From assembly GCA_027489275.1 (NCBI GenBank), contig JAIYAB010000089.1:1-37954 (forward strand): a DNA stretch of 37,954 bases. Reading direction: 5' to 3'. How positions within the stretch are numbered: the stretch's first letter is position 1; every line of letters begins with the position of its first letter. The position numbers were made by a program, and so were the translations under genes. Positions 1,451 through 33,673 of this stretch are shown one piece after another. This DNA comes from Hyphomicrobiales bacterium. Lineage in GTDB: Bacteria > Pseudomonadota > Alphaproteobacteria > Rhizobiales > Beijerinckiaceae. The notes beneath the pieces are model-generated. The model made no database searches. It saw only the letters and a program-made list of their open reading frames with translations, and was not told the origin of the DNA.

Positions 1451-2554
1451 TCAGTTCAGGTTGACCGACACGTTATGGCGCTCCTTGAGCCATTCGCGCA
1501 GCCAGGCGGTCTGCTCGGGCGTCATGCTGAGGCCGCCCTTGAAGATCTTCTCGGAGGCCGCGCCGACGCTCTGCGGATATTCGCCGAGCACGAGCTTGGC
1601 CTGCGGCGAGTTCAGGACATCCGACTTCAGTGCCGCCTCGGTCGCCTTCGTGTAGACGTCCACGATCTCCTTCGGCGTTCCCACCGGCAGCACGAGCATC
1701 TTCGAGCCCATGACGCGGACGTTGAACAGGGACTTCCACACGTCGTAGCCGATGCCGGTCAGGGGCTTGCCGTGCACCTTCTCGTAGACTTCGAGGAAGG
1801 TCGGCACGTCGGGCAGCATCGGGGCGCGCACGATCTTGCCCTCGGCATTCTCGAATCCGAAGGTGAACAGCACCGTCGCCTGGCCGGAGTCGACGAGGGG
1901 CTTCACTTCCTCCGCCCAGGAGGCGGCGTTGTCGTATTTCAGGTTGAACTCGCCGCGCTCGAAGCCAGCCCGCGACTCCGCGTTCGACAGGCCGTAGACG
2001 CCCTTCTGGCGGATGCCCAGCAGGTCGAATGCGACGAGCGCCGGCAGGTCCGACGACGTCGGGCCCGAGCCGCCGTAGACCGGCGGCTTGGCGATGAGCT
2101 TCTTCACGTTCTCGACGGGATCCTTGCCGAGCCCCAGATCGGTGCGCGCATAGGCGATGAGCCCGAAGGGCGAGGTCAGGAACGGCTTGAAATCCGGCAG
2201 CGGATACGCCACCGCCTTGTCCTTCAGGATGTACTGGAAGAACGTCCCGGTCGCGATGGCGCCGACCATCAGGCCGTCGGGCTTGGCGTCCTTGTGGAAC
2301 TGGTTGATGCCGCGCACCGAGCCGCCGCCGTCGATGTTGCGGATCACGATCGTCGGATTGCCGGGCAGGCTCTTCTCCAGCGCCATGGCGAAGAGACGCC
2401 CGTGGATCGTGGAGCCCGAACCCTCCTGGTAGGGAATGATCATGGTGATGCGCTTGCCCGCGAAGTCGACGGTCTGGGCCTGCGCGGCTCCCGCCGACAG
2501 GGCCAGCGCGGCGCCCAACGCCGTGGCGGTGCGTTTGAGAAGGCTAGCAATCAT
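1451..2554 (-). CDS. tctC: TctC/Bug-family periplasmic solute-binding protein
   Basis: This is a periplasmic receptor of the Bug/TctC family, which captures a carboxylate and hands it to TctA. The 367-residue product begins with a clear Sec signal peptide: basic MIASLLKRT, a hydrophobic AALALSAGA core and an AQA cleavage site near residue 26. The mature part opens with FAGKRITMIIPYQEGSGST, matching the family's usual IxxIVPYxxGGxxD opening, although the consensus Asp is replaced by a Ser/Thr-rich GSGST. That change could alter ligand recognition. The protein is about 40 residues longer than the usual 325. GAGGA lies 8 nt before the ATG at 2554, supporting the start. It lies 89 bp after the flavoprotein gene and before tctA, probably in one operon. 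Confidence 0.9.
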   Translation of the reverse strand: MIASLLKRTATALGAALALSAGAAQAQTVDFAGKRITMIIPYQEGSGSTIHGRLFAMALEKSLPGNPTIVIRNIDGGGSVRGINQFHKDAKPDGLMVGAIATGTFFQYILKDKAVAYPLPDFKPFLTSPFGLIAYARTDLGLGKDPVENVKKLIAKPPVYGGSGPTSSDLPALVAFDLLGIRQKGVYGLSNAESRAGFERGEFNLKYDNAASWAEEVKPLVDSGQATVLFTFGFENAEGKIVRAPMLPDVPTFLEVYEKVHGKPLTGIGYDVWKSLFNVRVMGSKMLVLPVGTPKEIVDVYTKATEAALKSDVLNSPQAKLVLGEYPQSVGAASEKIFKGGLSMTPEQTAWLREWLKERHNVSVNLN

Positions 2555-2643: not shown

Positions 2644-4173
2644 TCAGGCCGCCCGTTCGGTCGAACCCGTCGCAAAGCGCGCGGCATGGGCGCCGGCGAA
2701 GCGCCCGAAGGTCGCCCCCGACATCAACCCCGTGCCGCTTGCGTAGTTCTGGTAGAACAGGCCGCCGACCATCTCCCCGGCCGCATAGAGGCCGGGCACA
2801 GTGCCGCCGTAGCGGTCCACCACCTCGGCGTGCTCGGTGACCTTGAGGCCGCCGAAGGTGAAGGTGACGCCGGTGGTCACGTGATAGGCGTGGAAAGGCC
2901 CCGTATCGAGCGGCTGCGCCCAGTTCGACTTGTCGATGTCGAGCCCCGTCGTCCTCTTGCCGTCGCGCACGTTCGGGTTGAACGGGACGTCAGCCGGACA
3001 GGCGGCGTTGAATGCGCGCACGGTCCGCAGGAACCCTTCCGGATCGACGCCGGTCAGCTTCTGCGCCAGGTCCTCCAGCGTGTCCGCCACCGCCTTCGTC
3101 GTCCGGCGAATGCGGTACTCGCTGCGCAGGAGATGGGTGACCTTGTCGTCGAAGACCTGCCAGGCGAACATGCCCGGCTGCTTCATGATCTCGCCGCCGT
3201 ACTTGGCATAGGTGTGGCTGTGGAAGTTGGCGCCCTCGTCCACGAAGCGGTCGCCTCTGGCGTTGACGACGATGCCGTAAGGGTAGTTGTGCTTCTGGAA
3301 CTGGTCGCCGATGGTGAGGTCGCCATAGGCGGGCGCGTTGACGTCCCACGCGACCGAATGGCAGCCGGACCAGTTGCCGTGCGGCTGGGCGCCGAGCCTG
3401 AGCGCCATCATCAGGCCGTCGCCCATGTTGAAGCGCGTGCCGCGGACCTTGGCCGCGTCCCAGCCGGGGCCGAGATAGCGCGCGCGCATCTCCGGATTCG
3501 ACTCGAAGCCGCCGCAGGCCATGACCACCGCGCCGGCATGGAGCCGCACGTGCTTTCCGGCCGCGCGGGCGACGACGCCGACGACGCGGCCGTCCTCGTG
3601 GACGAGATCCAGCACCGGCGTGTCGTAGACCACCGGAACGCCGCGCTTCTCCGCCGTGGCGTAAAGCGCGCCCAGCAGTTCCGGCCCGCCGCCCCAGATA
3701 TGGAGGGCGAGACCACCGAAGAACTTGAACTTGCCGTCGATCTTGTAGGCCTGCCGGCCCAGGCCCGGCTCGAGCTTGACGCCCTGGCGCGAGATCCACC
3801 GCGCCGTCTCGAGGCTCGAACGCACCAGCAGCTCGCACAGTTCGGGATCGGTGCGGTACTCGGTCAGCTCGAACATGTCGTCGAGGAACTGCTCCTCGGA
3901 ATAGGACCCGAAATCGATGTTGGCGAGGTCCGCCTCCGCCACCGAGGGCGACACGGAAATGAGATCGTCCACCCCGCGATAGGCGAACCTGAAGGCGCCG
4001 CCCGTGAAATGGGAATTGCCGCCGCGCTCCTCGTAGGGAGCGGCTTCCAGCACCAGTACGCGCGCGCCGTTCTCCTGCGCCGAGAGCGCCGCGCACAGGG
4101 CGGCGTTGCCACCCCCCACGACGATCACGTCGTATGAACCCTGGAGTGGATTGCTGCCTGTCTGCGCCGTCAT
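2644..4173 (-). CDS. FAD-dependent dehydrogenase, TcuA (tricarballylate dehydrogenase)/fumarate reductase family
   Basis: This 509-residue soluble flavoprotein belongs to the fumarate reductase/succinate dehydrogenase flavoprotein superfamily. Near residues 16-25 is the dinucleotide-binding fold VIVVGGGNAA, followed by the adenosine-ribose acid in VLVLEAAP (Glu43) and then RGGNSHFTGG near 50-59, the pattern typical of tricarballylate dehydrogenase TcuA. Further on are VVNARGDRFVDEG and, near the C terminus, TGVTFTFGGLKV and ASGTGLMSGATFGR, the substrate- and FAD-binding signatures. No signal peptide is present, so it is cytoplasmic. The ATG at 4173 is chosen because it overlaps the upstream stop by 4 nt (ATGA), implying translational coupling with the MmgE/PrpD gene. 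A role in desaturating a tricarboxylate, with electrons passed to an unseen partner, is inferred from family and neighbours. Confidence 0.85.
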   Translation of the reverse strand: MTAQTGSNPLQGSYDVIVVGGGNAALCAALSAQENGARVLVLEAAPYEERGGNSHFTGGAFRFAYRGVDDLISVSPSVAEADLANIDFGSYSEEQFLDDMFELTEYRTDPELCELLVRSSLETARWISRQGVKLEPGLGRQAYKIDGKFKFFGGLALHIWGGGPELLGALYATAEKRGVPVVYDTPVLDLVHEDGRVVGVVARAAGKHVRLHAGAVVMACGGFESNPEMRARYLGPGWDAAKVRGTRFNMGDGLMMALRLGAQPHGNWSGCHSVAWDVNAPAYGDLTIGDQFQKHNYPYGIVVNARGDRFVDEGANFHSHTYAKYGGEIMKQPGMFAWQVFDDKVTHLLRSEYRIRRTTKAVADTLEDLAQKLTGVDPEGFLRTVRAFNAACPADVPFNPNVRDGKRTTGLDIDKSNWAQPLDTGPFHAYHVTTGVTFTFGGLKVTEHAEVVDRYGGTVPGLYAAGEMVGGLFYQNYASGTGLMSGATFGRFAGAHAARFATGSTERAA

Positions 4174-5585
4174 TCCGCTGCCGTCCTGTTGGGGGTGCCC
4201 GCGGCGCGCCCGGACGAGCCGGTCAGCCCTTCCCGCATCGTCGCGCCGATGGCCCGGATGTCGGGCACCGTTTCTATGCGGAGAAGGGCCTCCGCGATGG
4301 CATGCGCGGCGCCGTCGGAGACGACGGTCCGCGCACAATCGAAGAACTTGGTCTCCAGCGCGCCGGGCGGCAGCGGATGGGCGGCATCGCGGCCCAGCGG
4401 CATGTCCACATGCGCGTCGAACACCCGCCCGTCACGGGTCGTGACCCGGACGTCGGCGAAGAAATGCTGCGTCGTTTCCATCACCGCGTCGGGATGCGGC
4501 GCGGCCTCGATGCGGGCCATGAAGGCGCGTACGGCAGGGTCGCGCACGGCCTCGTCGCTGAAGTGGTCGGTGCGCACGGAGCCGTCGAGCGCGGCGCGCG
4601 CAAGCACGTACTGAACGCTGAACTTGCCATCGAGGCCCGAGCGCGGATCGGGCCGGTCGGTGTGGCGCAGCCGGCGGGGATGCGTCCACGAGCGGATATG
4701 GGCGATGTCGGTGGCTGTGACCGCCTCGCGCGCCATGATGTCCATGAGCGCGTCGAGCGCGGGATGCGTGCTGGCGCAGCAGGGATGGCGCTTGAAGGCG
4801 ACGCCAGGCTCGACGAGGTCGTAGGGGGCGGCGAACGTCTCGAACAGCGCCTCCGGCCTGAAATTCCCTGCCCCGTTGAAGACCATGAAGAAGCCCTGCG
4901 GATGCTCGAGCGCACCCGCGTTCGCGGTGAGCCCCGCCTGCGTCAGTAGCGCCGCGTGCAGCCCGCTGCGGGCGCACTGGCCCACGTGGAACGGCTTCGC
5001 CATCGTCCCGAAATTCGCCTTGATGCCGGCCGCCATCGATGCGGCGAGAGCCAGCACGTTGGCGACGCCGGCCGCGTCGAGCCCGATCAGCCGGGCGCAG
5101 GCGGCCGCGGCGCCGAAGGTGCCGAGCGTGGCGGTCGGATGCCAGCCCTTCTCGTAGTGGGTGAAGTTGACCGCCCGGCCGATCTTGGTCTCGACCTCGA
5201 AGCCCGTGACGTAGGCGGCCAGCACCTCGCGTCCCCCGGCTCCACGCGCCTCCCCCAGCGCCCAGAGCGCGGGCAAAATCGGCGCCGACGGATGCCCCCC
5301 CATCGTGTTGCTGCAGTCATCGAAATCGAGCGCGTGCGACGCCGTCCCGTTGACGAGCGCGGCGTCGAGAATCCCCGTCATGGCGCCCTGCCCGAACAGG
5401 CTGGCCGGCCCGAAAGCCGCAATGTCGCTGGCGGCGGCGACGGCGTTTACGCTGTCCTCGTGCGAGCCGGCGAGCGCCACGCCCACCGTGTCGAGCAGCG
5501 CCAGCCGCGCCGCGCGCAGGGCGTCCTGCGGAACGGCGGCGAGATCGATGGCGAGGGCCTTCTCGGCCAGCTGCAACAGGAGCAT
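4170..5585 (-). CDS. MmgE/PrpD family protein (2-methylcitrate dehydratase-like), copy 1
   Basis: This 471-residue protein of the MmgE/PrpD superfamily is related to 2-methylcitrate dehydratase, cis-aconitate decarboxylase and iminodisuccinate epimerase. It shows the family landmarks in order: LLDTVGVALAGS (31-41), ALVNGTASHALDFDD (76-90), GGHPSAPILPALWALGE (96-112), EKGWHPTATLGTFGAAAA (145-162) and FKRHPCCASTHPALDA in the C-terminal half, which carries the conserved Cys and His pair. It is the first gene of the leftward operon and its TGA overlaps the ATG of the flavoprotein gene. I infer that it hydrates or dehydrates a citrate-like compound; superfamily members vary too much for a firm reaction. 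A second, only distantly similar copy lies at 7528-8925 on the other side of the divergent promoter. Confidence 0.88.
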   Translation of the reverse strand: MLLLQLAEKALAIDLAAVPQDALRAARLALLDTVGVALAGSHEDSVNAVAAASDIAAFGPASLFGQGAMTGILDAALVNGTASHALDFDDCSNTMGGHPSAPILPALWALGEARGAGGREVLAAYVTGFEVETKIGRAVNFTHYEKGWHPTATLGTFGAAAACARLIGLDAAGVANVLALAASMAAGIKANFGTMAKPFHVGQCARSGLHAALLTQAGLTANAGALEHPQGFFMVFNGAGNFRPEALFETFAAPYDLVEPGVAFKRHPCCASTHPALDALMDIMAREAVTATDIAHIRSWTHPRRLRHTDRPDPRSGLDGKFSVQYVLARAALDGSVRTDHFSDEAVRDPAVRAFMARIEAAPHPDAVMETTQHFFADVRVTTRDGRVFDAHVDMPLGRDAAHPLPPGALETKFFDCARTVVSDGAAHAIAEALLRIETVPDIRAIGATMREGLTGSSGRAAGTPNRTAAE

Positions 5586-5822
5586 GACGCCTAACCGCCT
5601 CCTCGGCTCGCCCGTCCGGCAGCCCGCCGCCGGGTCGCCACGCCCCCGCGCGGCTCGGACCGGCAGGGCGGGAGCGGTAAAGTGTAGACACCGGAATTCG
5701 GTATTGTCTACACGAAATTGCCGATCTATGATCCATTCACGATCTCTCGAACGACTATCGATGTAACGGTCTCTGCATGACGCTCTTTTTGCACCGTTTT
5801 TCGAATATCGGGTGTCAACACC
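5586..5822. promoter_or_regulatory. Divergent promoter region with four TGT-NN-ACA operator-like boxes
   Basis: This 237-bp gap separates the leftward MmgE/PrpD operon from the rightward gntR operon and is visibly richer in A+T after 5700 than its surroundings. Boxes of the form TGT-NN-ACA occur at 5683-5690 (TGTAGACA), 5705-5712 (TGTCTACA), 5813-5820 (TGTCAACA) and 5834-5841 (TGTCAACA, just inside the regulator's reading frame). The first two extend to a perfect 9-bp inverted repeat, GTGTAGACA/TGTCTACAC. FCD-type GntR regulators commonly bind such short palindromes. The last two flank the start codon of gntR, so autoregulation is likely. The boxes are seen; the binding protein is inferred. 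Confidence 0.6.
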
Positions 5823-6581
5823 ATGTCTAAAAGTGTCAACAATGCTGCTTTGGAAAGTCTTTCTTCCAAGAACGGCATGCTTCTGGCAGACAAGGTGTTG
5901 TCATTCTTGCGATCGGAAATTTATGAGGGCCGGATTTCGCCGGGCGATCGCATCAACGAACTCGAGATTTCGCAGAAACTCGGCATCAGCCGCGGTCCCG
6001 TCCGCGAGGCGATCCGCCTCCTCTCCTCGTCGGGACTCGTCACCTACGAGGCGAATGTCGGGGCACGCGTCGTCTCCCCCGACGAAGACGGCGTCGCCCA
6101 GCTCTATGACGTGCGCGAGGCGCTGGAATCCACGGCGGCGAGGCTGGCCGCGATCCACATGACGCAGGCCGAGCGCGACACCCTGATCCGGACTCTGGAC
6201 GCCCACGACGCCCAGATGACGGAGGCCAGCTCCACGAGCTACCCGCGCGGCAACGCCGACTGGGATTTCCACCTGCTTATCCTGAAGGGCTCGCGCAACG
6301 ACGTCATCTGGCGCATCTGCGGCGACGAGCTGCGCGACATGTTCTCGCTGCTGCGCAGCCGGCACGGATCGAGCCCGGGACGCGGCCGGCGCGCGCTCCA
6401 GGAGCATCGCTGGATCGCCGAGGCCGTGGCCGCGGGCGACGCCGACCTCGCCGCGGCGCTGATGGCCCAGCACATCCGAGCGTCCCGCAACAATCTCCTG
6501 GCCGCGATGCGGGCGGGCGGCGACCGCGACCGGCGGCCGTCTCTCCGCGCTTCCGCCCCGCGGTCGATCTCCTCGAGGTAG
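5823..6581 (+). CDS. GntR-family transcriptional regulator, FCD subfamily
   Basis: This 252-residue regulator has an N-terminal winged helix: VLSFLRSEIYEGRISPGDRI, then ELEISQKLGISRGPVREAIR with the SRGPVREA recognition-helix signature. A helical FCD ligand-binding domain follows. Putative metal ligands of FCD proteins are visible as Asp147/His149 in WDFH, His in EHRWI and His in MAQHI. No Shine-Dalgarno sequence precedes the ATG at 5823, which lies between two TGTCAACA boxes. A start at Met19 (5877) is also possible and would leave the whole DNA-binding domain intact. It is the first gene of the rightward operon, ending 3 nt before the lyase gene, and probably represses both divergent units until an organic acid binds. 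Confidence 0.9.
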   Translation: MSKSVNNAALESLSSKNGMLLADKVLSFLRSEIYEGRISPGDRINELEISQKLGISRGPVREAIRLLSSSGLVTYEANVGARVVSPDEDGVAQLYDVREALESTAARLAAIHMTQAERDTLIRTLDAHDAQMTEASSTSYPRGNADWDFHLLILKGSRNDVIWRICGDELRDMFSLLRSRHGSSPGRGRRALQEHRWIAEAVAAGDADLAAALMAQHIRASRNNLLAAMRAGGDRDRRPSLRASAPRSISSR

Positions 6582-6584
6582 GAC

Positions 6585-7478
6585 ATGACAGCGAAATGGC
6601 TGAACGGCGCGACGCCCGCCGCGCATGACGTGATGCCCCTGTGCCGGCCTGGCAAGGCAACGGCGGTGGCCGGCGCATGGGACGGCATCTCTGCGGCGCT
6701 GGCGGCCCGCGCGGGCTTCGAGGCGCTCTACCTGTCGGGCGCCGCGCTGTCGGCGTCGATGGCGATGCCCGACCTCGGCCTGATCACACTGGACGACGTC
6801 TGGCGGGCGGCGCGGACGGTGGTGCGAGCCTCCAACCTGCCGCTGATCGTCGATTGCGACACGGGTTTCGGCGAGGCGCTCAACCTGATGCGCACGGTCC
6901 GGGAGCTCGAATCGGTCGGCGTCGCCTGCATCCAGATCGAGGACCAGCAGCTTCCCAAGAAGTGCGGGCACCTCAACGACAAGCGGCTGATCCCCGCCGA
7001 CGACATGTGCCGCAAGGTCGAGGCGGCCAAGCGCGCCGCAGGCTCAATGGCCATCTGCGCGCGCACGGACGCCGCGTCCGTCTCGCTGGACGAGGCGCTG
7101 GACCGGGCGAAGCGGTATGCCCGCGCCGGCGCCGACGTCATCTTCGTCGAGGCGTTGACGAACCACGACGACATTCGCCGCGTCCGCACCGAGATCGACG
7201 TCCCGCTGATCGCCAACATGACCGAGTTCGGCCGCACGCCGCAGATCGGTCTCGATGAATGGGCCGGCCTCGGCTACGAGCTCGTGATCTACCCGGTCTC
7301 GGCGCTGCGCGTCGCCGCCCGGGCGATCGAGGGCTTCTACGCCGGCCTCGCCCGCGACCGCACCGCCGAGCACCAGCTGCCGACGATGATGACGCGGTCC
7401 GAACTCTACGAGCGCATCGGCTATTTCGACTACGAGGCGCTGGACGCCCAGATCGCCCGCACCGTCCTGCCGGCCTGA
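6585..7478 (+). CDS. Isocitrate lyase/PEP mutase family protein, methylisocitrate lyase-like (PrpB-type)
   Basis: This 297-residue TIM-barrel enzyme belongs to the isocitrate lyase/PEP mutase superfamily. Visible active-site elements are SGAALSASMAMPDLGL (51-66), the Mg-binding LIVDCDTGFG with Asp90 and Asp92, QIEDQ with Glu119, and the lyase signature KKCGH (125-129) with Cys127 as the likely general acid. The KKCGH motif separates C-C lyases such as PrpB from PEP mutases, so it should split a 2-hydroxy-tricarboxylate or dimethylmalate-like acid into a dicarboxylate and a 2-oxo acid. It starts 3 nt after the gntR stop, with its GAGG ribosome-binding site overlapping that stop, so translation is probably coupled. 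The exact substrate is unknown; proximity to two PrpD proteins supports a citrate-like acid. Confidence 0.88.
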   Translation: MTAKWLNGATPAAHDVMPLCRPGKATAVAGAWDGISAALAARAGFEALYLSGAALSASMAMPDLGLITLDDVWRAARTVVRASNLPLIVDCDTGFGEALNLMRTVRELESVGVACIQIEDQQLPKKCGHLNDKRLIPADDMCRKVEAAKRAAGSMAICARTDAASVSLDEALDRAKRYARAGADVIFVEALTNHDDIRRVRTEIDVPLIANMTEFGRTPQIGLDEWAGLGYELVIYPVSALRVAARAIEGFYAGLARDRTAEHQLPTMMTRSELYERIGYFDYEALDAQIARTVLPA

Positions 7479-7527: not shown

Positions 7528-8925
7528 ATGGGCAACCACGCCTCGGACAATCCGCACACGCGGGCCATCGCCGGCTTCGTCTCCGGCCTCGCCTATGACG
7601 CCATCCCGGGCGCCGTGCGCGATCGGATCAAGCTTCTGGTACTCGATTCGCTCGGCTGCGCGCTCTACGGCGCCGACCTTCCCTGGACGCGGATCCTGCA
7701 GACGACGCTCGCCCGGTACGACGCCACCCGCACGAGCCCGGTCTGGGGCACAGACCAGGCGCTCTCCGCGCCGCACGCGGCGCTGGTCAACGGTACGCAG
7801 GTGCAGGGCTTCGAGCTCGACGACGTGCACCGCCAGGGCGTGCTGCACGTGGGCGCGGTGACCCTGCCGGCGCTGCTGGCCGCCGTCGGACCCGACACGC
7901 CGCTCGACGGGCGGGAGCTCCTGGCCGCCATCGTCGCCGGCTACGAGATCGGCCCGCGGGTCGGCATGTGCATGGGGCAGGAGCATATCGGCCAGGGCTG
8001 GCATTCGGGCGCCACAGTGGGCGTCTTCTCGGCCGCCGCCGGCGCGGCCCGCGCCATGCGCCTGACGCCCGACCAGACGGTGCACGCGCTCGGCATCGCC
8101 GGGACGCAGTCGGCGGGCCTGATGGCCGCCCAGTACGGCGCCATGGTGAAGCGCATGCATGCCGGCCGCTCGGCCCAGAGCGGCCTGTACGGCGCGCTGC
8201 TGGCACGCGATGGCTTCACCGGCATCGTGGACGTGTTCGAGGCGCCCTACGGCGGCTTCTGCACCACCTTCTCGCGCTCGACCGACCGCTTCGATCTCGC
8301 GGAACTGTCGCGGGGCCTCGGCGACGGCTTCGAGACCATGCGCATCTCGCTCAAGTTCTACTCCTGCGTGGGCAGCAACCACACGACGCTCGACGCCATC
8401 CGCGCCATCCAGGCCCGGCGTCCCTTCGTCCACGGGGAGGTCGACCGCATCGTCGTGCACGGCTCGCAGGTCACCGTCGACCATGTCGGCTGGCCTTACG
8501 AGCCGCAGGGCCTGACCTCCGCGCAGCTCAACCTGCCCTTCTGCGTGGCCACCCTGCTGCTCGAGGGCGACGTCTTCGTCGACCAGTTCCCGGAGGACTG
8601 CGTCGGCAATCACGAGCGCATCGCCCTGTCGCGCAAGGTCGAGGTCGTGCACGACCCGGCGATCACCGCGCTCGGCTCGAAGTTCCGCCACAAGGTGCGC
8701 GTCGACGTGCACTTCAGGGACGGCGCCTGCCTCAGCGAGACGCGAGAGGCCCCACGCGGCAGCGAGACGTCCTTCGCCAGCGAAGCCGACATCGTCGACA
8801 AGTTCCGCAAGCTGGCCGCCAAGCGCCTCACCGACGCGCAGCAGGACGCCCTTGTCGAAGCCGTGCTGCGGATGGAGACGCTGTCGAGCGCCCACACCCT
8901 CGTCGAGAGGCTGCGCCGTCCGTGA
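7528..8925 (+). CDS. MmgE/PrpD family protein, copy 2
   Basis: This 465-residue MmgE/PrpD superfamily member carries the landmarks KLLVLDSLGCALYGAD (35-50), ALVNGTQVQGFELDD (85-99), HVGAVTLPALLA (107-118), QGWHSGATVGVFSAAAGAA (156-174) and LKFYSCVGSNHTTLDA further on. It differs from copy 1 in having GWHSGAT where copy 1 has GWHPTAT, and SCVGSNHTTLDA in place of CCASTHPALDA. The two therefore probably act on different substrates or at different steps rather than being duplicates. A GGAGA sequence precedes the ATG at good spacing. It lies 49 bp after the lyase gene and overlaps the next gene by 4 nt (GTGA). Its reaction is unassigned: hydratase, decarboxylase and epimerase are all known in this family. 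Confidence 0.87.
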   Translation: MGNHASDNPHTRAIAGFVSGLAYDAIPGAVRDRIKLLVLDSLGCALYGADLPWTRILQTTLARYDATRTSPVWGTDQALSAPHAALVNGTQVQGFELDDVHRQGVLHVGAVTLPALLAAVGPDTPLDGRELLAAIVAGYEIGPRVGMCMGQEHIGQGWHSGATVGVFSAAAGAARAMRLTPDQTVHALGIAGTQSAGLMAAQYGAMVKRMHAGRSAQSGLYGALLARDGFTGIVDVFEAPYGGFCTTFSRSTDRFDLAELSRGLGDGFETMRISLKFYSCVGSNHTTLDAIRAIQARRPFVHGEVDRIVVHGSQVTVDHVGWPYEPQGLTSAQLNLPFCVATLLLEGDVFVDQFPEDCVGNHERIALSRKVEVVHDPAITALGSKFRHKVRVDVHFRDGACLSETREAPRGSETSFASEADIVDKFRKLAAKRLTDAQQDALVEAVLRMETLSSAHTLVERLRRP

Positions 8926-10079
8926 CCTCGCCCGGCGGGCCGGCCTGGCGGAGGCTGCGCCGGTTGGGGGGCCGCCTCGCCGCGCGGCGCCCGTCCCCGC
9001 GCGAGGTCGCCGCGCTACTCGCAGCGCTGGCGGCGGGGGCCCTGTTCTACCGGCTCGCGGTGCCGCTCGCCTGGGTGCTCGGGCCGCTCGTGGCGACCGC
9101 CGCGCTGGCCATCGCTGGCTGGCCGGTCTTCGCCTCGGTCAACGCTCGGCGCTTCGGCCAGGTCACCATCGGGGCGAGCATCGGCCTGAACATCAGCGCC
9201 GCCGTGCTCGCCACCATCGTCATGTGGCTGCCCGTGATGGTGGCGACGGCGATCTTCGCCATCGTGCTGGGCGGAATCATCGCGGCGCCGCTGGCCCGCT
9301 GGGGCGGCATCGACGTCCGCACCGCCTACTATTCCATGATGCCCGGCGGCCTCACCGAGATGGCGAACATCGGGCTCGCGGCCGGCGCGCGGCCCGAGCC
9401 CATCGCGCTTGCGCAATCGCTGCGCGTGACGCTGCTGGTGGTCATCCTGCCGCCGCTTATCGTGGCCCTCGACATCCATGGCGACGCGGTGGACGGGCTT
9501 GCCGGCCAGCCGCTGCCCTGGCTCCACACGCTCCTCGCGCTCGCGCTCGGCGCGGGCGGGGTCTGGCTCGCGCGGCTCCTGCGGTTCAACAATCCCTGGA
9601 TGCTGGGGGCCCTGATCGGCACGGGAACGGCCGCGGCGCTTGGGCTGCTGGTCGGCAAGCTGCCCACCTGGCTGTTCTATGCCGGCCAGTTCATGATCGG
9701 CATCGCGGTCGGCGCGCGGTTCAGGCGCGAGAGCCTCATGCGCCTGCCGCGCTTCGCTGTGGCGGTCACAGGAACGATCATCATCGTGGCCGCTATCATG
9801 GGCGCCTATGCGGCGTTGCTCTCCCGCCTGAGCGGTCTCGATCTCGCCAGCGCGGCGCTCGGCGCATCGCCCGGAGGCTTCGCCGAAATGGCAATTACCG
9901 CGCAGACGCTGCATCTGTCCGTTGGCCTCGTCACGGCCTTCCACGTCGTGCGCGCGTTCCTCGTCAATGCGGCCGTCGAGCATATCCGGGTCTTGCTGGC
10001 CCGCATCGGCGTGTTCACGACGATGAGCCGCCTCGTCGGCTTACCGTGCGAGCCCGGTTCGACGCGGGAGCGGGAGTAG
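8922..10079 (+). CDS. AbrB-family integral membrane protein (PF05145-type), putative transporter
   Basis: This membrane protein of 385 residues has about ten hydrophobic segments. It contains an internal duplication: MMPGGLTEMANIGLAAG in the first half and ASPGGFAEMAITAQTLH in the second, a repeat typical of the AbrB/putative ammonia monooxygenase membrane family. Despite the family name it is unrelated to the DNA-binding AbrB regulator. The chosen start is GTG 8922, which overlaps the TGA of the preceding MmgE/PrpD gene (GTGA), a coupling arrangement that also gives the family's usual length. It is the last gene of the gntR operon. Family members often accompany organic-acid catabolic genes, so export or import of a carboxylate is a reasonable inference without direct evidence. 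Confidence 0.82.
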   Translation: MTSPGGPAWRRLRRLGGRLAARRPSPREVAALLAALAAGALFYRLAVPLAWVLGPLVATAALAIAGWPVFASVNARRFGQVTIGASIGLNISAAVLATIVMWLPVMVATAIFAIVLGGIIAAPLARWGGIDVRTAYYSMMPGGLTEMANIGLAAGARPEPIALAQSLRVTLLVVILPPLIVALDIHGDAVDGLAGQPLPWLHTLLALALGAGGVWLARLLRFNNPWMLGALIGTGTAAALGLLVGKLPTWLFYAGQFMIGIAVGARFRRESLMRLPRFAVAVTGTIIIVAAIMGAYAALLSRLSGLDLASAALGASPGGFAEMAITAQTLHLSVGLVTAFHVVRAFLVNAAVEHIRVLLARIGVFTTMSRLVGLPCEPGSTRERE

Positions 10080-10136: not shown

Positions 10137-11069
10137 CTAGATTGATGTTCGGTTGGCGCCCTTCAGGTGAAGCATGGCGCGCGCTTCGTCCGGTGTTGCA
10201 ACATCGTAGCCCATGGCTTCGATGATTGTCCGCGCTGCCCGCACCTGTTCCGCATTCGAGCGCGCGAGGCGGCCGGCGCCTGACCACAGGCTATCCTCCA
10301 GTCCCACCCGGACGTTGCCGCCCATGGAGATCGAGGCTGTCGCGACCCGCATCTGGGCCGCGCCCGCGCCAAGGACGGACCAGACATACTGGTCGCCGAA
10401 CAGGCGGTCCGCCGTCCGCTTCATCATCGTGACATCCTCGAAATGAGTGCCGATCCCGCCGAGAATACCGAAGCAGGACTGGATGAACAGGGGCGGTTTC
10501 ACAAGCCCCTGGTCGAGGAAATACTTGAGATTATAAAGATGTCCAATGTCGTAACACTCGAACTCGAAGCGAGTATCGTTGCCGGCGCAGGTTTCCAGAA
10601 CGAACTCGATATCGGCGAACGAATTGCGGAAGACTGCGTCCTTCGACCGCTCCAGAGCCGGCTTCTCCCAGGCATGCTTGAAATCGGTGTAGCGCTCGAG
10701 CATCCGATGGAGGGCGAAGTTTATGGAGCCCATGTTCAGTGACGCGACTTCCGGCTTGAAGACGGCGGCCGGTCGAACGCGCTCTTCCTTGGTCATGCCC
10801 GGGCCACCACCCGTCGTCAGATTGATCACGGCGGACGTCGCCTGCTTGATCTGCGGCAGAAATCGACCGAAAGCTTCTGGAGACTGGTCGGGCTCCCCCG
10901 TGTCAGGCTTGCGGGCGTGAAGGTGGATGATCGAAGCGCCTGCTTCAGCCGCCCCGAGCGCACCATCGACGATCTCCTGAGGCGTGACAGGAAGATACGG
11001 TGACATCGACGGCGTGTGGATCGCACCGGTGACCGCACAGGTGATGATGACCTTCTTCGTCGCTGCCAT
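10137..11069 (-). CDS. BKACE family protein (beta-keto acid cleavage enzyme, DUF849)
   Basis: This 310-residue TIM-barrel protein of the BKACE family uses Zn to cleave a beta-keto acid with acetyl-CoA, giving acetoacetate and a new acyl-CoA; 3-keto-5-aminohexanoate cleavage enzyme is the prototype. It shows IITCAVTGAIHTPSMSPYLPVTP near the N terminus, where typical members have an ITCAVTGA opening, and then the metal-binding IIHLHAR with His49 and His51. Later come INLTTGGG, SLNMGSINF and the C-terminal ASISMGGNVRVGLEDS, which holds the conserved Gly-Asn-x-Arg-Val-Gly-x-Glu-Asp. GGGGGA precedes the ATG. It is transcribed leftward, apparently from its own promoter, because a TGTGATCACA palindrome lies 47 bp upstream. 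The keto acid substrate is unknown. Confidence 0.9.
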   Translation of the reverse strand: MAATKKVIITCAVTGAIHTPSMSPYLPVTPQEIVDGALGAAEAGASIIHLHARKPDTGEPDQSPEAFGRFLPQIKQATSAVINLTTGGGPGMTKEERVRPAAVFKPEVASLNMGSINFALHRMLERYTDFKHAWEKPALERSKDAVFRNSFADIEFVLETCAGNDTRFEFECYDIGHLYNLKYFLDQGLVKPPLFIQSCFGILGGIGTHFEDVTMMKRTADRLFGDQYVWSVLGAGAAQMRVATASISMGGNVRVGLEDSLWSGAGRLARSNAEQVRAARTIIEAMGYDVATPDEARAMLHLKGANRTSI

Positions 11070-11144: not shown

Positions 11145-13361
11145 TCAGCAGGTCGGATTGCGTGCCTGTTCCTGGGACGATGACATGCCGGACTGCCGAA
11201 GGACATGCCTGAGGCCATGCGCAATGTCCGCCGGACCGGCGCAGGCAGCAGCTTCGAGAACCTTGGAGATACTCGGGGAGGCTTCGCCGCCCAGAACGCG
11301 ATGGACCGGTTGGTCGAGCCAGTCAAAGAGACGGTCCTGCACTTCGGCGGCCAGGATACCGCCGTAGGACGTTCCGATCGGCCCCTGTTCGACCACAAGG
11401 ACTTTGTGGGTCTTGCGAACCGATGCTTCGATCGTGTGCCAGTCGATGCCGGCCCGGTCGAGGGATCGCAGGTCAATGATCTCGGCGTCGATCCCGAGTT
11501 CGTCCACAACCGCCCGAACCTTGGCGACCATCGAGAGATACGTGAGCACGGTCATCGCCGCGCCCTGTCGAACGACTTTCGCTTTGCCAAGTGGAATGAA
11601 GTAGTCGAGGTCTGCCTCGGGCGCCGAGCCTTGGGAATTGTAAAGTTCGACGTGTTCGATGACCAGCACCGGATCCTTGCAACGGATCGCACTGTTCATC
11701 AGGCCGACATAGTCGAACGGCGTGGACGGTGCGACGATCCGCCAGCCGGCTGACGTCGCGTACAGACCGGCCGGGTCCATCGAGTGTTGAGACCCGTAAC
11801 CGGTGCCCATGGCAACTTTCGTCCTGAGCACGAGCGGCATGTCGCCGTCTCCGCCGAACATATGGCGCGCCCTCGCGATCTGGTTGAAAATCTGATCGGC
11901 AGCGACCCAGGTGAAGTCGGCATACATGAATTCGACGATGGGGATGAAGCGACCGTCCATCGCGATTCCTCCGGCCATACCGGAGAAGGCGTTTTCGCAG
12001 ATCGGCGTTCCGAGGACCCGATCGGGAAAGGCCTGATGCAGGCCACGCGTCGCGCCGTTGGTGCCTCCCTTCAGGCGATGGACATCCTCGCCCAGGATGA
12101 TGATCCTGGGATCCTCCTCCATGCGCCGGTGCAAGACCCGGGCGATGACATCGACGAATGTGGCTGATGGTGTAACGGGACCTTTGAACGTCTCCGACTC
12201 TTCGGTACGAACGCCGTCGAATTCCGACAGGTCACCCCGGATCCCGAAGTCGCGAAACGACCTGTCTGGCCACAAGGCGGGGACGATCCTGCGCTTGCCG
12301 TCCACATGCTCGAGCATGCTGTCGGCAATATCGTCCATCATCGCGACGGCGCCTTCGCGGAGCGCGCGGATGCCCTCTTCGCCAAAGAGCTGACGCTCCA
12401 TCGCTTCGCGTGCCACACGATCCAACGGATCGCGCTGGCGCCATGCCGCCTCCTCTTCCTTCGTGCGATAGCCGAACGCGCTTCCCGGCAGCGGGCCGTT
12501 CTGGTGGAAGAAGCGGTAGACGTCAGCCTCGATCACGGTAGGACCGCCGCCGTCACGCATCAGGGCCACCGCTTCGTTCATGGCGAGATGAACGGCAAGG
12601 GGGTCCATGCCGTCGACCTTCCAGGATGGAATAGAGAAGGCCGTACCGCGCGACGAAAGCCTCGGCTCCGCCGTCGATTCCTCGACCGTCGTCGAGACAG
12701 CATAGCGATTGTTCTCGATGAAAAAGCACAGCGGGAGCCGCCATGCGGCCGCGAGATTCATGGTTTCGAGCACCGATCCGATGTTGATCGCGCCGTCACC
12801 GAAGTAGGTGACGACCACGCCAGCGCTCCCGGCCCTTTTGTGGGCCCAGGCCGCACCGGCGGCGAGCGGTACACCGCCGCCAACGATTGCATTGGTCCCG
12901 AGGTTGCCCGCATCCCGCCAGCGCAGGTGCATCGAGCCGCCGCGGCCCTTACAGAATCCCTCCGAGAGCCCCATGATCTCGGCCAGAGCCTTGCGCGACA
13001 GGTGGCGCACACCTTCGCTGAGGGCCCCGGCGCCGACGCAAAGTCCATCCGGTGCAACATGCTGGAGCGACTTGGCCAGAAACTGGTGATGGCCCCGGTG
13101 GGAGCCGTTGATCTCGTCGCCCGCGCGAAGGCTCATCACCGAGCCCACGGCACCCCCTTCCTGGCCGATCGCGGAATGAGCCGGGCCGTGCACCAGTCCC
13201 ATCCCTGCAAGCTCCAGAACCTTTTCCTCGAAGGCTCGAATGACGTGGAGGGAGGCGAGCATGGTGCCCAACCCGGCAGGCGAAAGCGACGCCCAGTCAG
13301 CGCTCGTCGAACGAAGTTCGCGCCACCGTTCCCTTGGCGCCAGGTCGTGGTATTCGGGCAC
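11145..13361 (-). CDS. Fused E1 alpha-beta subunit of a 2-oxoacid dehydrogenase, ThDP-dependent
   Basis: This 738-residue protein joins the alpha and beta subunits of a pyruvate/acetoin/branched-chain 2-oxoacid dehydrogenase E1 in one chain. The alpha part (about 1-330) has VIRAFEEK, GPAHSAIGQEG, NGSHRGHHQFLAKS and the thiamine diphosphate motif GDGAINIGSVLETMNLAA (from about 188) ending in IENN. The beta part (about 400-720) has IIILGEDV, the ENAFSGMAGGIAMDGRFIP region, VEFMYADFTWVAADQIFNQ and GYGSQHS. The start is set at GTG 13361 because GGAGGT lies 7 nt upstream. An upstream in-frame GTG at 13400 would add 13 residues but lacks a ribosome-binding site. No E2 or E3 gene is visible in the window, so it must borrow them or work alone as a decarboxylase. 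Confidence 0.9.
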   Translation of the reverse strand: MPEYHDLAPRERWRELRSTSADWASLSPAGLGTMLASLHVIRAFEEKVLELAGMGLVHGPAHSAIGQEGGAVGSVMSLRAGDEINGSHRGHHQFLAKSLQHVAPDGLCVGAGALSEGVRHLSRKALAEIMGLSEGFCKGRGGSMHLRWRDAGNLGTNAIVGGGVPLAAGAAWAHKRAGSAGVVVTYFGDGAINIGSVLETMNLAAAWRLPLCFFIENNRYAVSTTVEESTAEPRLSSRGTAFSIPSWKVDGMDPLAVHLAMNEAVALMRDGGGPTVIEADVYRFFHQNGPLPGSAFGYRTKEEEAAWRQRDPLDRVAREAMERQLFGEEGIRALREGAVAMMDDIADSMLEHVDGKRRIVPALWPDRSFRDFGIRGDLSEFDGVRTEESETFKGPVTPSATFVDVIARVLHRRMEEDPRIIILGEDVHRLKGGTNGATRGLHQAFPDRVLGTPICENAFSGMAGGIAMDGRFIPIVEFMYADFTWVAADQIFNQIARARHMFGGDGDMPLVLRTKVAMGTGYGSQHSMDPAGLYATSAGWRIVAPSTPFDYVGLMNSAIRCKDPVLVIEHVELYNSQGSAPEADLDYFIPLGKAKVVRQGAAMTVLTYLSMVAKVRAVVDELGIDAEIIDLRSLDRAGIDWHTIEASVRKTHKVLVVEQGPIGTSYGGILAAEVQDRLFDWLDQPVHRVLGGEASPSISKVLEAAACAGPADIAHGLRHVLRQSGMSSSQEQARNPTC

Positions 13362-13479
13362 GCTTTCTACCTCCGCGAGGGCAGGAACCCGCCGTGACAC
13401 CCAAGCCCGTCAGTCTCCCGCGCCGGTCAAGCGGAGAGACTCGCGGCGCGTCGAAACACCACGCGTTTCAATCGATTGA

Positions 13480-31416: not shown

Positions 31417-32139
31417 CTATTTCCCTTCTACTTGTACAAGGTACTCGGGGTGATGAACGGCCAGCCCCTCGACGACCGCTTCGTTTGATGCGATGTGGCG
31501 CTGCATCGCCTCTCGCGCGCCATCCGGGTTCCCTTTGGCGATCGCCTTGGCGATCTCACGGTGGAACTCCACCGCGAGCGGACCGCGATTGAGGTGGAGC
31601 GAGAGGTAGTGCACGCGGTCCATGTTGGCGCGTGCGACACGCACCATGCCCCACATCGTCGGGAGATGGGCGGCCTCGAAGATCATTCTGTGGAACTCCG
31701 CGTCGAGGTCATAGACCTTTTCCGCCTCGTTCCGGCCGAATGCCGCGGCCTGGTTTTCGACGACTTGAAGAAGGGCCTGACCCGTCAACGCGCACTCCGG
31801 CGAGGAGGCGGCCGTTGCTGCGGCTTCACCTTCCAGAAGCGCGCGGATGCGTATGGCCTCGTGCAACCGCGCTAAGTCGAGCGGCGTGACGAAGGTGCCA
31901 AGTCCCGGAAAGATCTCGACCAGCCCTTCGTCTCGGAGCCGTTGAAGCGCTTCGCGGACTGGCGTGCGACTGATGCCGGCCTCTTCGGCGATGACGGTCT
32001 CATAGAGCGGTTCGCGCGGCCTGAAGACGAGCCGGACAATCCTTTCGCGCAGTTGCGAGTAAACCTGCTCGGCTGCCGGCTTTCGACGATCGACCCTCAA
32101 CCGCGCCCACTTGGCCGCCGGGACAGTACCCGCTTCCAT
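31417..32139 (-). CDS. GntR-family transcriptional regulator, FCD subfamily
   Basis: This 240-residue regulator starts at ATG 32139, with GGGAG at 7 nt; a longer open frame upstream lacks start signals. The winged helix contains AEQVYSQLRERIVRLVFRPREPL and EEAGISRTPVREALQRL, a canonical SRTPVREAL recognition helix, with wing GTFVTPLD. The FCD domain shows Asp and His ligand positions in YDLDAEFHRMIFEAAH and HLNRGPLAVEFHREI and the late MQRHIASNEAV. It is divergent from the TIM-barrel-like gene, with a CTGTATACAG palindrome between them. It is the probable regulator of the sugar-acid module to its right. Confidence 0.9.
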   Translation of the reverse strand: MEAGTVPAAKWARLRVDRRKPAAEQVYSQLRERIVRLVFRPREPLYETVIAEEAGISRTPVREALQRLRDEGLVEIFPGLGTFVTPLDLARLHEAIRIRALLEGEAAATAASSPECALTGQALLQVVENQAAAFGRNEAEKVYDLDAEFHRMIFEAAHLPTMWGMVRVARANMDRVHYLSLHLNRGPLAVEFHREIAKAIAKGNPDGAREAMQRHIASNEAVVEGLAVHHPEYLVQVEGK

Positions 32140-32192
32140 TGCCGTCTCCCGGTAGATTCGTTCGCCATGTGGTTGCTGCTGCTTCCATATGC

Positions 32193-32202
32193 CTGTATAC
32201 AG
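32193..32202. promoter_or_regulatory. CTGTATACAG palindrome, likely GntR/FCD operator
   Basis: This perfect 10-bp palindrome lies in the gap between the divergent GntR gene (start 32139) and the TIM-barrel-like gene (start 32219). TGTATACA is the classic core recognised by FadR- and UxuR-type GntR/FCD proteins. It sits only about 17 bp before the rightward start codon, which suits repression. Confidence 0.6.
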
Positions 32203-32218
32203 CAGGGAGAACAAGGTG

Positions 32219-33673
32219 ATGAGCCTTCTTCCGTCAAGCAAGAGAGGCCACGTGACGCAACGCAGCGTGGGTGTAACGGTCCTCCCGGAGTTCTTCCAGG
32301 TCGAAGGCGTCGAGTCGGTACTCGACAATCTCACCAGTCGGGCCGGCATCACCGCCATCGCGACGTCTCCCTACGTGATGCGGCCCGCGCCGGACGGAGA
32401 GGGCAGCCGGGAGCCTCCTATCGATGGGGGCGCGGGGTCGGTCCGCCTGCTCGATCGCCCGCTCTGGGGCCGACGCGAGTTGTGGGTGCGCACGGCGCCG
32501 AGCTTCGAGCCGCGCCGGAGCCTCTATGACGGTTTGCGGTACCGGCCGGCCGAACCAGACGACCTCACCCGGAAGGAGGGCGACGTCGTCGAACAGGCAA
32601 TCCGTTCCGCCAAGGTACGCGGCCTGGAGGTTCACCTGCAGGTGCAGGCGGCGATCCCGCCGGGCTACCGCGTCCAGTTCGGCGGCCCGGTGGAGGAGGA
32701 TCGCCCCGCCCTGCCGGACCGCTCCTCGCCCAGGGTCCGCGTGGACAACAACGGCTCCCTCGCGAGCCCGCACATCCTCGCCTATACGCAGGCCCTGATC
32801 CGCGACGTGATCGGCGCCTATCCGGACATCGACGTGCTGCGGATCGACTGGCCGGAATACCCGCCCTACTCGCTCGACGCGCTGTTCTTCGACTTCTCCC
32901 CCCACGCCATGCGCCTGATGGAGGAGCTCGGGTACGACGCCGAGCGGATCCGCTCCGACGCTGCCGGCCTCTATAGCGCCCTCTCCGGCCTCGCCCCGGG
33001 CGATGCGGGTCGGGCTCTTGCCGCGGGCCCTTACGGGCTCGGTCGCCTGTTGATGACGCGCCCGGGCCTGCTGGCATGGCTGCAGGCCAAGGCGGCTATC
33101 GTCACCCGTTTCATTGCGTCCTGCGCGGCTACGACCAGAGAGGCCTCGGGGGGACGGGTGCGGCTGATGCCGCAGGCGTTCCCTCCGCCATGGACGCTGC
33201 TGTCGGGCTTCGACTACGCGGCTGTTGCCGGCACAGGCGTTTCTGCGATCGGGGTCAAGCTCTATACGATGCACTGGCCGATGATCCTGCGTAGCATCTG
33301 TGACGCGCTCGTTGCCCACGCGCCGCCGCTGGCGAGGGATGACGGCCTCGCCGATGACGTCGCCGGCCTGCTCGGGTTGGTGGATGGAGGCCAGCGCCTC
33401 GGCCCGCGAACGGCAGTGCGCTACCCCGAGCCAGACGAGCCGCATCCTGTCGGCGCAGCGGCGCAGGCGAGCAAGATCCGCATGGCGCAAAGGGAGGCCG
33501 GAGGCGTACCGGTTCACGCCTTCGCCCATGGCTACGGTCCGGTGGCGGACGTTGCCGAGCGGATCCGTGTGGCTTTCGAGGCGTCGGACGGTCGGCTCTG
33601 GGTCAACCGTTACGGCTATCTCGCCGACGCAAAGCTCGACGCGATCGGTCGCATCACGGGAGCACGACCTTGA
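32219..33673 (+). CDS. TIM-barrel-like protein of unknown function, glycoside-hydrolase-like
   Basis: This protein of 484 residues is one I cannot place in a named family. It alternates hydrophobic strands and helices as a TIM barrel would: VGVTVLPEFFQ, ITAIATSPYVM, LEVHLQVQAAIPPGY, then IDVLRIDWPEYPPYSLDALFFDFS, and FDYAAVAGTGVSAIGVKLYTMHWP. The VLRIDWPEYPPY stretch, with an acid at the end of a strand, recalls the catalytic strand of hypothetical glycosyl hydrolases (DGIxxDxxRYP). No signal peptide is visible, so it seems cytoplasmic. ATG 32219 is chosen for the GGGAG nine nt upstream; GTG 32252 is possible. Position next to a sugar-binding protein and uronate-type enzymes suggests action on a sugar-acid conjugate. 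Confidence 0.65.
   Translation: MSLLPSSKRGHVTQRSVGVTVLPEFFQVEGVESVLDNLTSRAGITAIATSPYVMRPAPDGEGSREPPIDGGAGSVRLLDRPLWGRRELWVRTAPSFEPRRSLYDGLRYRPAEPDDLTRKEGDVVEQAIRSAKVRGLEVHLQVQAAIPPGYRVQFGGPVEEDRPALPDRSSPRVRVDNNGSLASPHILAYTQALIRDVIGAYPDIDVLRIDWPEYPPYSLDALFFDFSPHAMRLMEELGYDAERIRSDAAGLYSALSGLAPGDAGRALAAGPYGLGRLLMTRPGLLAWLQAKAAIVTRFIASCAATTREASGGRVRLMPQAFPPPWTLLSGFDYAAVAGTGVSAIGVKLYTMHWPMILRSICDALVAHAPPLARDDGLADDVAGLLGLVDGGQRLGPRTAVRYPEPDEPHPVGAAAQASKIRMAQREAGGVPVHAFAHGYGPVADVAERIRVAFEASDGRLWVNRYGYLADAKLDAIGRITGARP

Follow-up and report, generated by a model that had tools for sequence, protein, structure and literature searches.

A GntR/FCD-family regulator encoded in the window (the whole 37,954-bp stretch of DNA analysed here) probably shuts off both its own operon and a divergent tricarboxylic-acid operon, as judged from sequence comparison. 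In the reading preferred here, to which we give a probability of roughly 70%, the regulator would occupy an outer pair of operator boxes (O1/O2) and block both promoters, an inner pair (O3/O4) would reinforce autorepression by means of a roadblock or a loop, and an acid of the pathway would release the regulator. The genes of the module are as follows.

1451..2554, minus strand: protein in place of the TctC-like protein of loci L064/L065, itself without a Pfam match
2644..4185, minus strand: FAD-dependent dehydrogenase of the TcuA (tricarballylate dehydrogenase) family (NF006130, 585 bits, cut-off 369)
4170..5585, minus strand: MmgE/PrpD-family protein 1, encoded at the head of the divergent operon
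5823..6581, plus strand: GntR/FCD-family regulator (gntR), 252 aa, predicted cognate regulator
6585..7478, plus strand: second in the gntR operon; PrpB-like protein of the methylisocitrate lyase / PEP mutase family (TIGR02317, 349.9 bits, cut-off 354.4)
7528..8925, plus strand: MmgE/PrpD-family protein 2
8922..10079, plus strand: AbrB-family (PF05145) membrane protein

The initial annotation had called this locus a tricarboxylate module, which is a fair label given the TcuA, MmgE/PrpD, PrpB-like and TctC-place genes. The TctC match itself is weak (E 0.0015, below cut-off) and was obtained with the L064 counterpart protein only, both MmgE/PrpD proteins score far below the PrpD cut-offs, and the PrpB-like protein falls just below the TIGR02317 cut-off in the window and above it in L064. 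No PrpC-like gene was found among the module genes examined, and the combination of prpB, prpC and prpD/acnD that is typical of PrpR/PmiR regulators does not occur at the window locus. The order of the reading frames is the same in the orthologous loci L062, L064 and L066 and broadly kept in L063 and L065. Elsewhere in the window, a BKACE of the 3,5-dioxohexanoate:acetyl-CoA acetone transferase type is encoded at 10137-11069 on the minus strand (NF053538, 527 bits, cut-off 430), with a neighbouring gene, at 11145-13400, for a PDH-like protein in which E1 alpha and beta are fused.

The candidate operators comprise four boxes, none of which is assigned a strand.

5683..5690, no strand: operator box O1, TGTAGACA; contains the minus-strand -10 region; identical in 5/5 orthologous loci
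5705..5712, no strand: operator box O2, TGTCTACA; contains the minus-strand -35 and overlaps a plus-strand -35-like TTGTCT; identical in 5/5 loci
5813..5820, no strand: operator box O3, TGTCAACA; just 5' of the gntR ATG; TGTCAACA/TGTCGACA in 4/5 loci, degenerate TGTCGATT in L065
5834..5841, no strand: operator box O4, TGTCAACA; within gntR; TGTCAACA/TGTCGACA in 4/5 loci, TGTCATCA in L064

All four TGT-NN-ACA boxes reported in the initial annotation are present at these positions, and they cluster far above chance. The window holds seven matches to TGTNNACA, four of them within 159 bp, a density reached in 0/1,500 whole-window shuffles; dinucleotide-preserving shuffles of the local region (191 bp, 45% GC) yielded four boxes in 0/100,000 and three boxes in 2/100,000 cases. 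Each box is one base off TGTCGACA. The outer pair does form the perfect 9-bp inverted repeat that had been described (GTGTAGACA/TGTCTACAC, 22 bp apart), whereas the inner pair, taken to be inverted in the same way, consists of two copies of GTGTCAACA at 21 bp that form a 9-bp direct repeat, so that the likeness of the two pairs is limited to their spacing. From 5585 the divergent MmgE/PrpD gene is read on the minus strand; the gntR ATG at 5823 lies between O3, which begins 10 bp 5' of it, and O4, which spans the gntR codons GTC AAC at 129 bp from O2.

The regulator carries an N-terminal GntR winged helix-turn-helix (50.6 bits, cut-off 27) and a C-terminal FCD domain (94.0 bits, cut-off 24.3), the domain composition of the FadR (FCD) subfamily of the GntR superfamily, and palindromes of the GT-N-AC type lie near its own gene (TGTNNACA, GT-2-AC group). 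Its best match among solved structures is PDB 7xp0 (E 8e-43 over 207 aa), with which it has in common the SRGP recognition helix, SRGP(V/L)REA. We take 7xp0/7xp1 to be the structure of Pseudomonas aeruginosa PmiR/PrpR (PA0797), PmiR presumably being the same protein as PrpR; a match to 6z74, presumably the structure of Agrobacterium fabrum Atu1419, denotes a distant relation (E 1.6e-15). The regulator is probably related to P. aeruginosa PrpR, which we infer to be its nearest characterised relative, and would fall close to the PrpR/PmiR branch (2-methylcitrate repressors) of the family.

P. aeruginosa PrpR (PA0797) represses prp, the 2-methylcitrate operon, and its predicted motif is ATTGTCGACAAT (PMC9765439). 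This 12-mer is found letter for letter at the inner box of the Microvirga locus (L064), and only there; the window boxes (TGTCAACA, TGTCTACA and TGTAGACA) do not match it exactly, and its core TGTCNACA, or the reverse, is present in all loci. Operators of the FadR subfamily have GT and AC 3 nt apart, or 2 nt apart in a group including PrpR and MdcY (PMC4494728), and the GT-N2-AC form of the window boxes is that of the PrpR/MdcY group. Among other proteins compared, relatives with the SRGP helix (L033, L038) have TGTCNACA boxes upstream and SRTP proteins (L040, L041, L015) have TGTATACA-like ones, a comparison based on a small, informal sample with exceptions: most of the other SRGP-type relatives compared (L034, L037 and L073) lacked an exact box within the scanned stretch, and SRGP-type L036 has TGTATACA.

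Several further boxes were observed near other regulators. Upstream of the SRGP-type L033 regulator (G017:C2, 40% identity), TGTCAACA, TGTCGACA and TGTCGACA lie 62 and 38 bp apart; at L017 (G000:C330), which encodes another FCD regulator of the same genome as the window, TGTCGACA and TGTAGACA lie 53 bp apart, some 290-340 bp before the HTH. In the window itself, a TGTATACA box at 32194-32201 precedes by about 209 bp the HTH codons of a further GntR/FCD gene, one with an SRTP helix (31417-32358, minus strand); it may be the own operator of that gene, whose longest listed frame may start too far upstream.

Orthologues of the regulator were compared at L062 (96% identity), L063 (81%), L064 of Microvirga arabica (68-69%), L065 of a Xanthobacteraceae member (71-75%) and L066 of Puniceispirillum (53-55%). 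O1 TGTAGACA and O2 TGTCTACA are unchanged in the window, L062, L063, L064 and L065, at spacings of 22, 22, 22, 22 and 21 bp, and the spacer between them has diverged (3/14 columns invariant over the five loci). All five loci keep a spacing of 21 bp between O3 and O4, with two exact boxes in the window, in L062 and in L063 and one degenerate box in each of L064 (TGTCGACA/TGTCATCA) and L065 (TGTCGATT/TGTCGACA). The initial annotation had proposed a comparison of box spacing in orthologous loci, and the spacing of 21-22 bp proved to be kept in both pairs, with no case of its loss beside a conserved promoter. Invariant columns make up 27/32 of the boxes and 15/158 of the positions outside (five loci; Fisher p 3e-17, a value that is descriptive only because columns are non-independent and three loci are close relatives). 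Since the window, L062 and L063 are closely related, the loci amount to about four independent observations. The L066 locus (53% identical) has one exact box and one box with a single mismatch rather than four, TGCCGACA being located within its regulator gene.

The conservation of the inner boxes might instead be ascribed to the demands of coding or of ribosome binding at the gntR start, given that O4 lies within the gene (GTC AAC) and O3 between a weak GGG/GAG/AGG and the ATG. This explanation is improbable: the N-terminal residues around O4 are poorly conserved, the adjoining spacer has only 1/13 columns invariant, O3 is retained in three loci though it is non-coding there, and the Microvirga box equals the 12-bp PrpR consensus.

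The outer pair accompanies the regulator in 5/6 orthologous loci, across families. Three of 397 genomes of the family have an orthologue of the regulator, each with the outer pair at that locus, and other occurrences of the pair are confined to three genomes, where it lies at other places and precedes a nucleotidyltransferase gene in both genomes in which the gene could be read. A search of about 1,290 genomes at the level of class, order, family and genus gave no orthologues beyond those described, L071/L074 and L072/L075 being the contigs of L062 and L064, and the plasmids searched yielded one distant relative, with no boxes upstream. The genome of the window has 32 FCD-domain matches, and the boxes could belong to another of these regulators, since TGT-NN-ACA is common as an FCD core and the unrelated nucleotidyltransferase gene also has a matching outer pair; but the pair travels with a window-type regulator as counted above, and the core TGTCGACA matches PrpR, which makes ownership by another FCD protein unlikely. 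The pairs found at other places (L001 (G000:C215) 4390-4418, L078 1501-1529 and L079 1501-1529) have the form TGTAGACA-N13-TGTCTACA, 21 bp, with A/T-rich flanks, and read as TAGACA-17-TACA, which is promoter-like. In the genome of the window, the C215 pair stands directly 5' of a nucleotidyltransferase gene (NTP_transf_8), and L078 has a similar gene and arrangement. The C215 pair was considered as a target of the window regulator and set aside, as nothing ties it to this protein.

Two sigma-70 promoters are predicted between the divergent genes, from consensus matches (9 of 12).

5681..5710, minus strand: predicted sigma-70 promoter of the MmgE/PrpD-TcuA-TctC-like operon; -35 TAGACA 5710-5705, 18-bp spacer, -10 TACACT 5686-5681
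5704..5732, plus strand: predicted sigma-70 promoter of gntR; -35 TTGTCT 5704-5709, 17-bp spacer, -10 TATGAT 5727-5732

Read on the minus strand, the outer boxes (TGTAGACA-N14-TGTCTACACT) spell TAGACA, 18 bp and TACACT, and TAGACA-17/18-TACACT or TACAAT is found in 5/5 loci (TACACT in three, TACAAT in two), L065 combining a box spacing of 21 with a promoter spacer of 17 bp. On the plus strand, 4/5 loci have TATNNT (TATGAT, TATGAT, TATGGT and TATCGT) at a 17-bp spacing from the TTGTCT that overlaps O2, the match being absent in L063. Both predicted promoters overlap the outer pair, and therefore one pair can occlude both. The initial annotation had envisaged one pair at each divergent promoter; this arrangement was not recovered, as no promoter was seen near O3/O4 when looked for, and the inner pair would be some 75-100 bp downstream of where gntR transcription is predicted to begin. 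A promoter that has a 17-18 bp spacer and carries an operator on both hexamers must have its boxes 21-22 bp apart. The spacing, read in the initial annotation as a sign of two dimers of dimers, need not reflect contacts between dimers, though it would be compatible with cooperative ones.

In the proposed mechanism, each 8-bp TGTCNACA box would be a pseudo-palindrome read by one dimer, and two dimers on O1/O2, which carry the predicted -10 and -35 of the divergent MmgE/PrpD-TcuA operon and overlap the gntR -35, would exclude RNA polymerase in both directions. Some 129 bp downstream, O3/O4 would strengthen autorepression through an elongation block, the roadblock suggested in the initial annotation, and/or a short loop to the promoter pair, with simple autorepression as a further possibility, and the repressor would presumably be released by a tricarboxylate-type metabolite of the pathway. 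Alternatively, the pairs may be separate operators, with control by O1/O2 confined to the divergent MmgE/PrpD operon and control by O3/O4 confined to gntR, whose promoter would then be near the start codon. In keeping with this, O3 starts 10 bp before the gntR ATG, and divergons are described whose two sites act on one operon each (PMC4494728). We consider this unlikely, in view of the lack of a promoter-like site near O3/O4 and of the plus-strand promoter over O2 kept in 4/5 loci. Independent sites would also be expected to float, whereas the distance from O2 to the in-gene box stays at about 128 bp while that to the ATG varies.

In the six loci, this distance between O2 and a single box at the gene start comes to 129, 128, 125, 129, 130 and 128 bp (measured in L066 from its sole exact box), and that from O2 to the ATG ranges over 101-121. 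In simulations that kept the pair spacing and allowed for the choice of box, such constancy had a p of 0.0009 to 0.004; it is treated as a lead, the question having been framed after the data were seen. In the window, L062 and L063 the start codon has one inner box on either side; in L064 (Microvirga) and L065 (Xanthobacteraceae) it precedes both. The flanking of the start codon by boxes 3 and 4, part of the initial annotation, thus holds in the window, in L062 and in L063 and is not a conserved property, both inner boxes being in-gene in L064 and L065. The fixed distance of 125-130 bp is consistent with a tetramer bridging two palindromes, as in looping of the Atu1419 kind, and about 128 bp corresponds to 12.2 helical turns, a non-integer number. 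A more specific proposal, which we regard as tentative and on balance doubtful, is that an FCD repressor sensing a tricarboxylate bridges the promoter-embedded pair, across a constant distance of about 128 bp, to the pair located at or within the start of its own coding sequence, the loop geometry fixing the in-gene site and the start codon moving around it in evolution. The helical phase between the pairs was also weighed as an argument and dropped, about four independent loci being too few to carry it.

Comparable arrangements have been described for other regulators of the subfamily. P. aeruginosa PrpR is, as the window regulator is predicted to be, a GntR/FCD repressor beside a PrpB gene; its operator core is TGTCGACA (PMC9765439). 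It has one 12-bp operator upstream of prpR, whereas the window has four boxes in two pairs together with a divergent TcuA/MmgE operon and, among the module genes examined, no PrpC-like gene. Atu1419 of A. fabrum is a tetrameric VanR-type GntR/FCD repressor that binds short palindromes (ATGTATACAT) overlapping promoter hexamers, with second sites 190 or 109 bp away, the 109-bp site being degenerate, downstream and inside the open reading frame; loops were seen by electron microscopy on the 190-bp pair, which belongs to a different promoter from the 109-bp one (PMC7797058). Palindromes on promoter hexamers with a distant second site in an open reading frame recall the arrangement in the window, for which a loop is proposed, but Atu1419 has the core TGTATACA and single sites as opposed to pairs at 21-22 bp. 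Divergons of the FadR subfamily carry double sites of constant spacing at the divergon centre, inferred to act cooperatively on both operons (PMC4494728). O1/O2 resemble these in being a double site of constant spacing within a divergon; the window differs in having a second pair downstream, at the regulator start codon.

The operator system is thus real, conserved and well formed, yet a fundamentally familiar kind of switch. For a catabolic module of tricarboxylic acids about which little has been described (TcuA, two MmgE/PrpD proteins and a PrpB-like lyase), it provides a switch that is compact and testable; it would extend the PrpR-type operator code to Alphaproteobacteria, and offers an example of operator spacing coinciding with promoter spacing. 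It may also add to Atu1419 a second case in which FCD operators lie in-gene and keep a set distance from the promoter.
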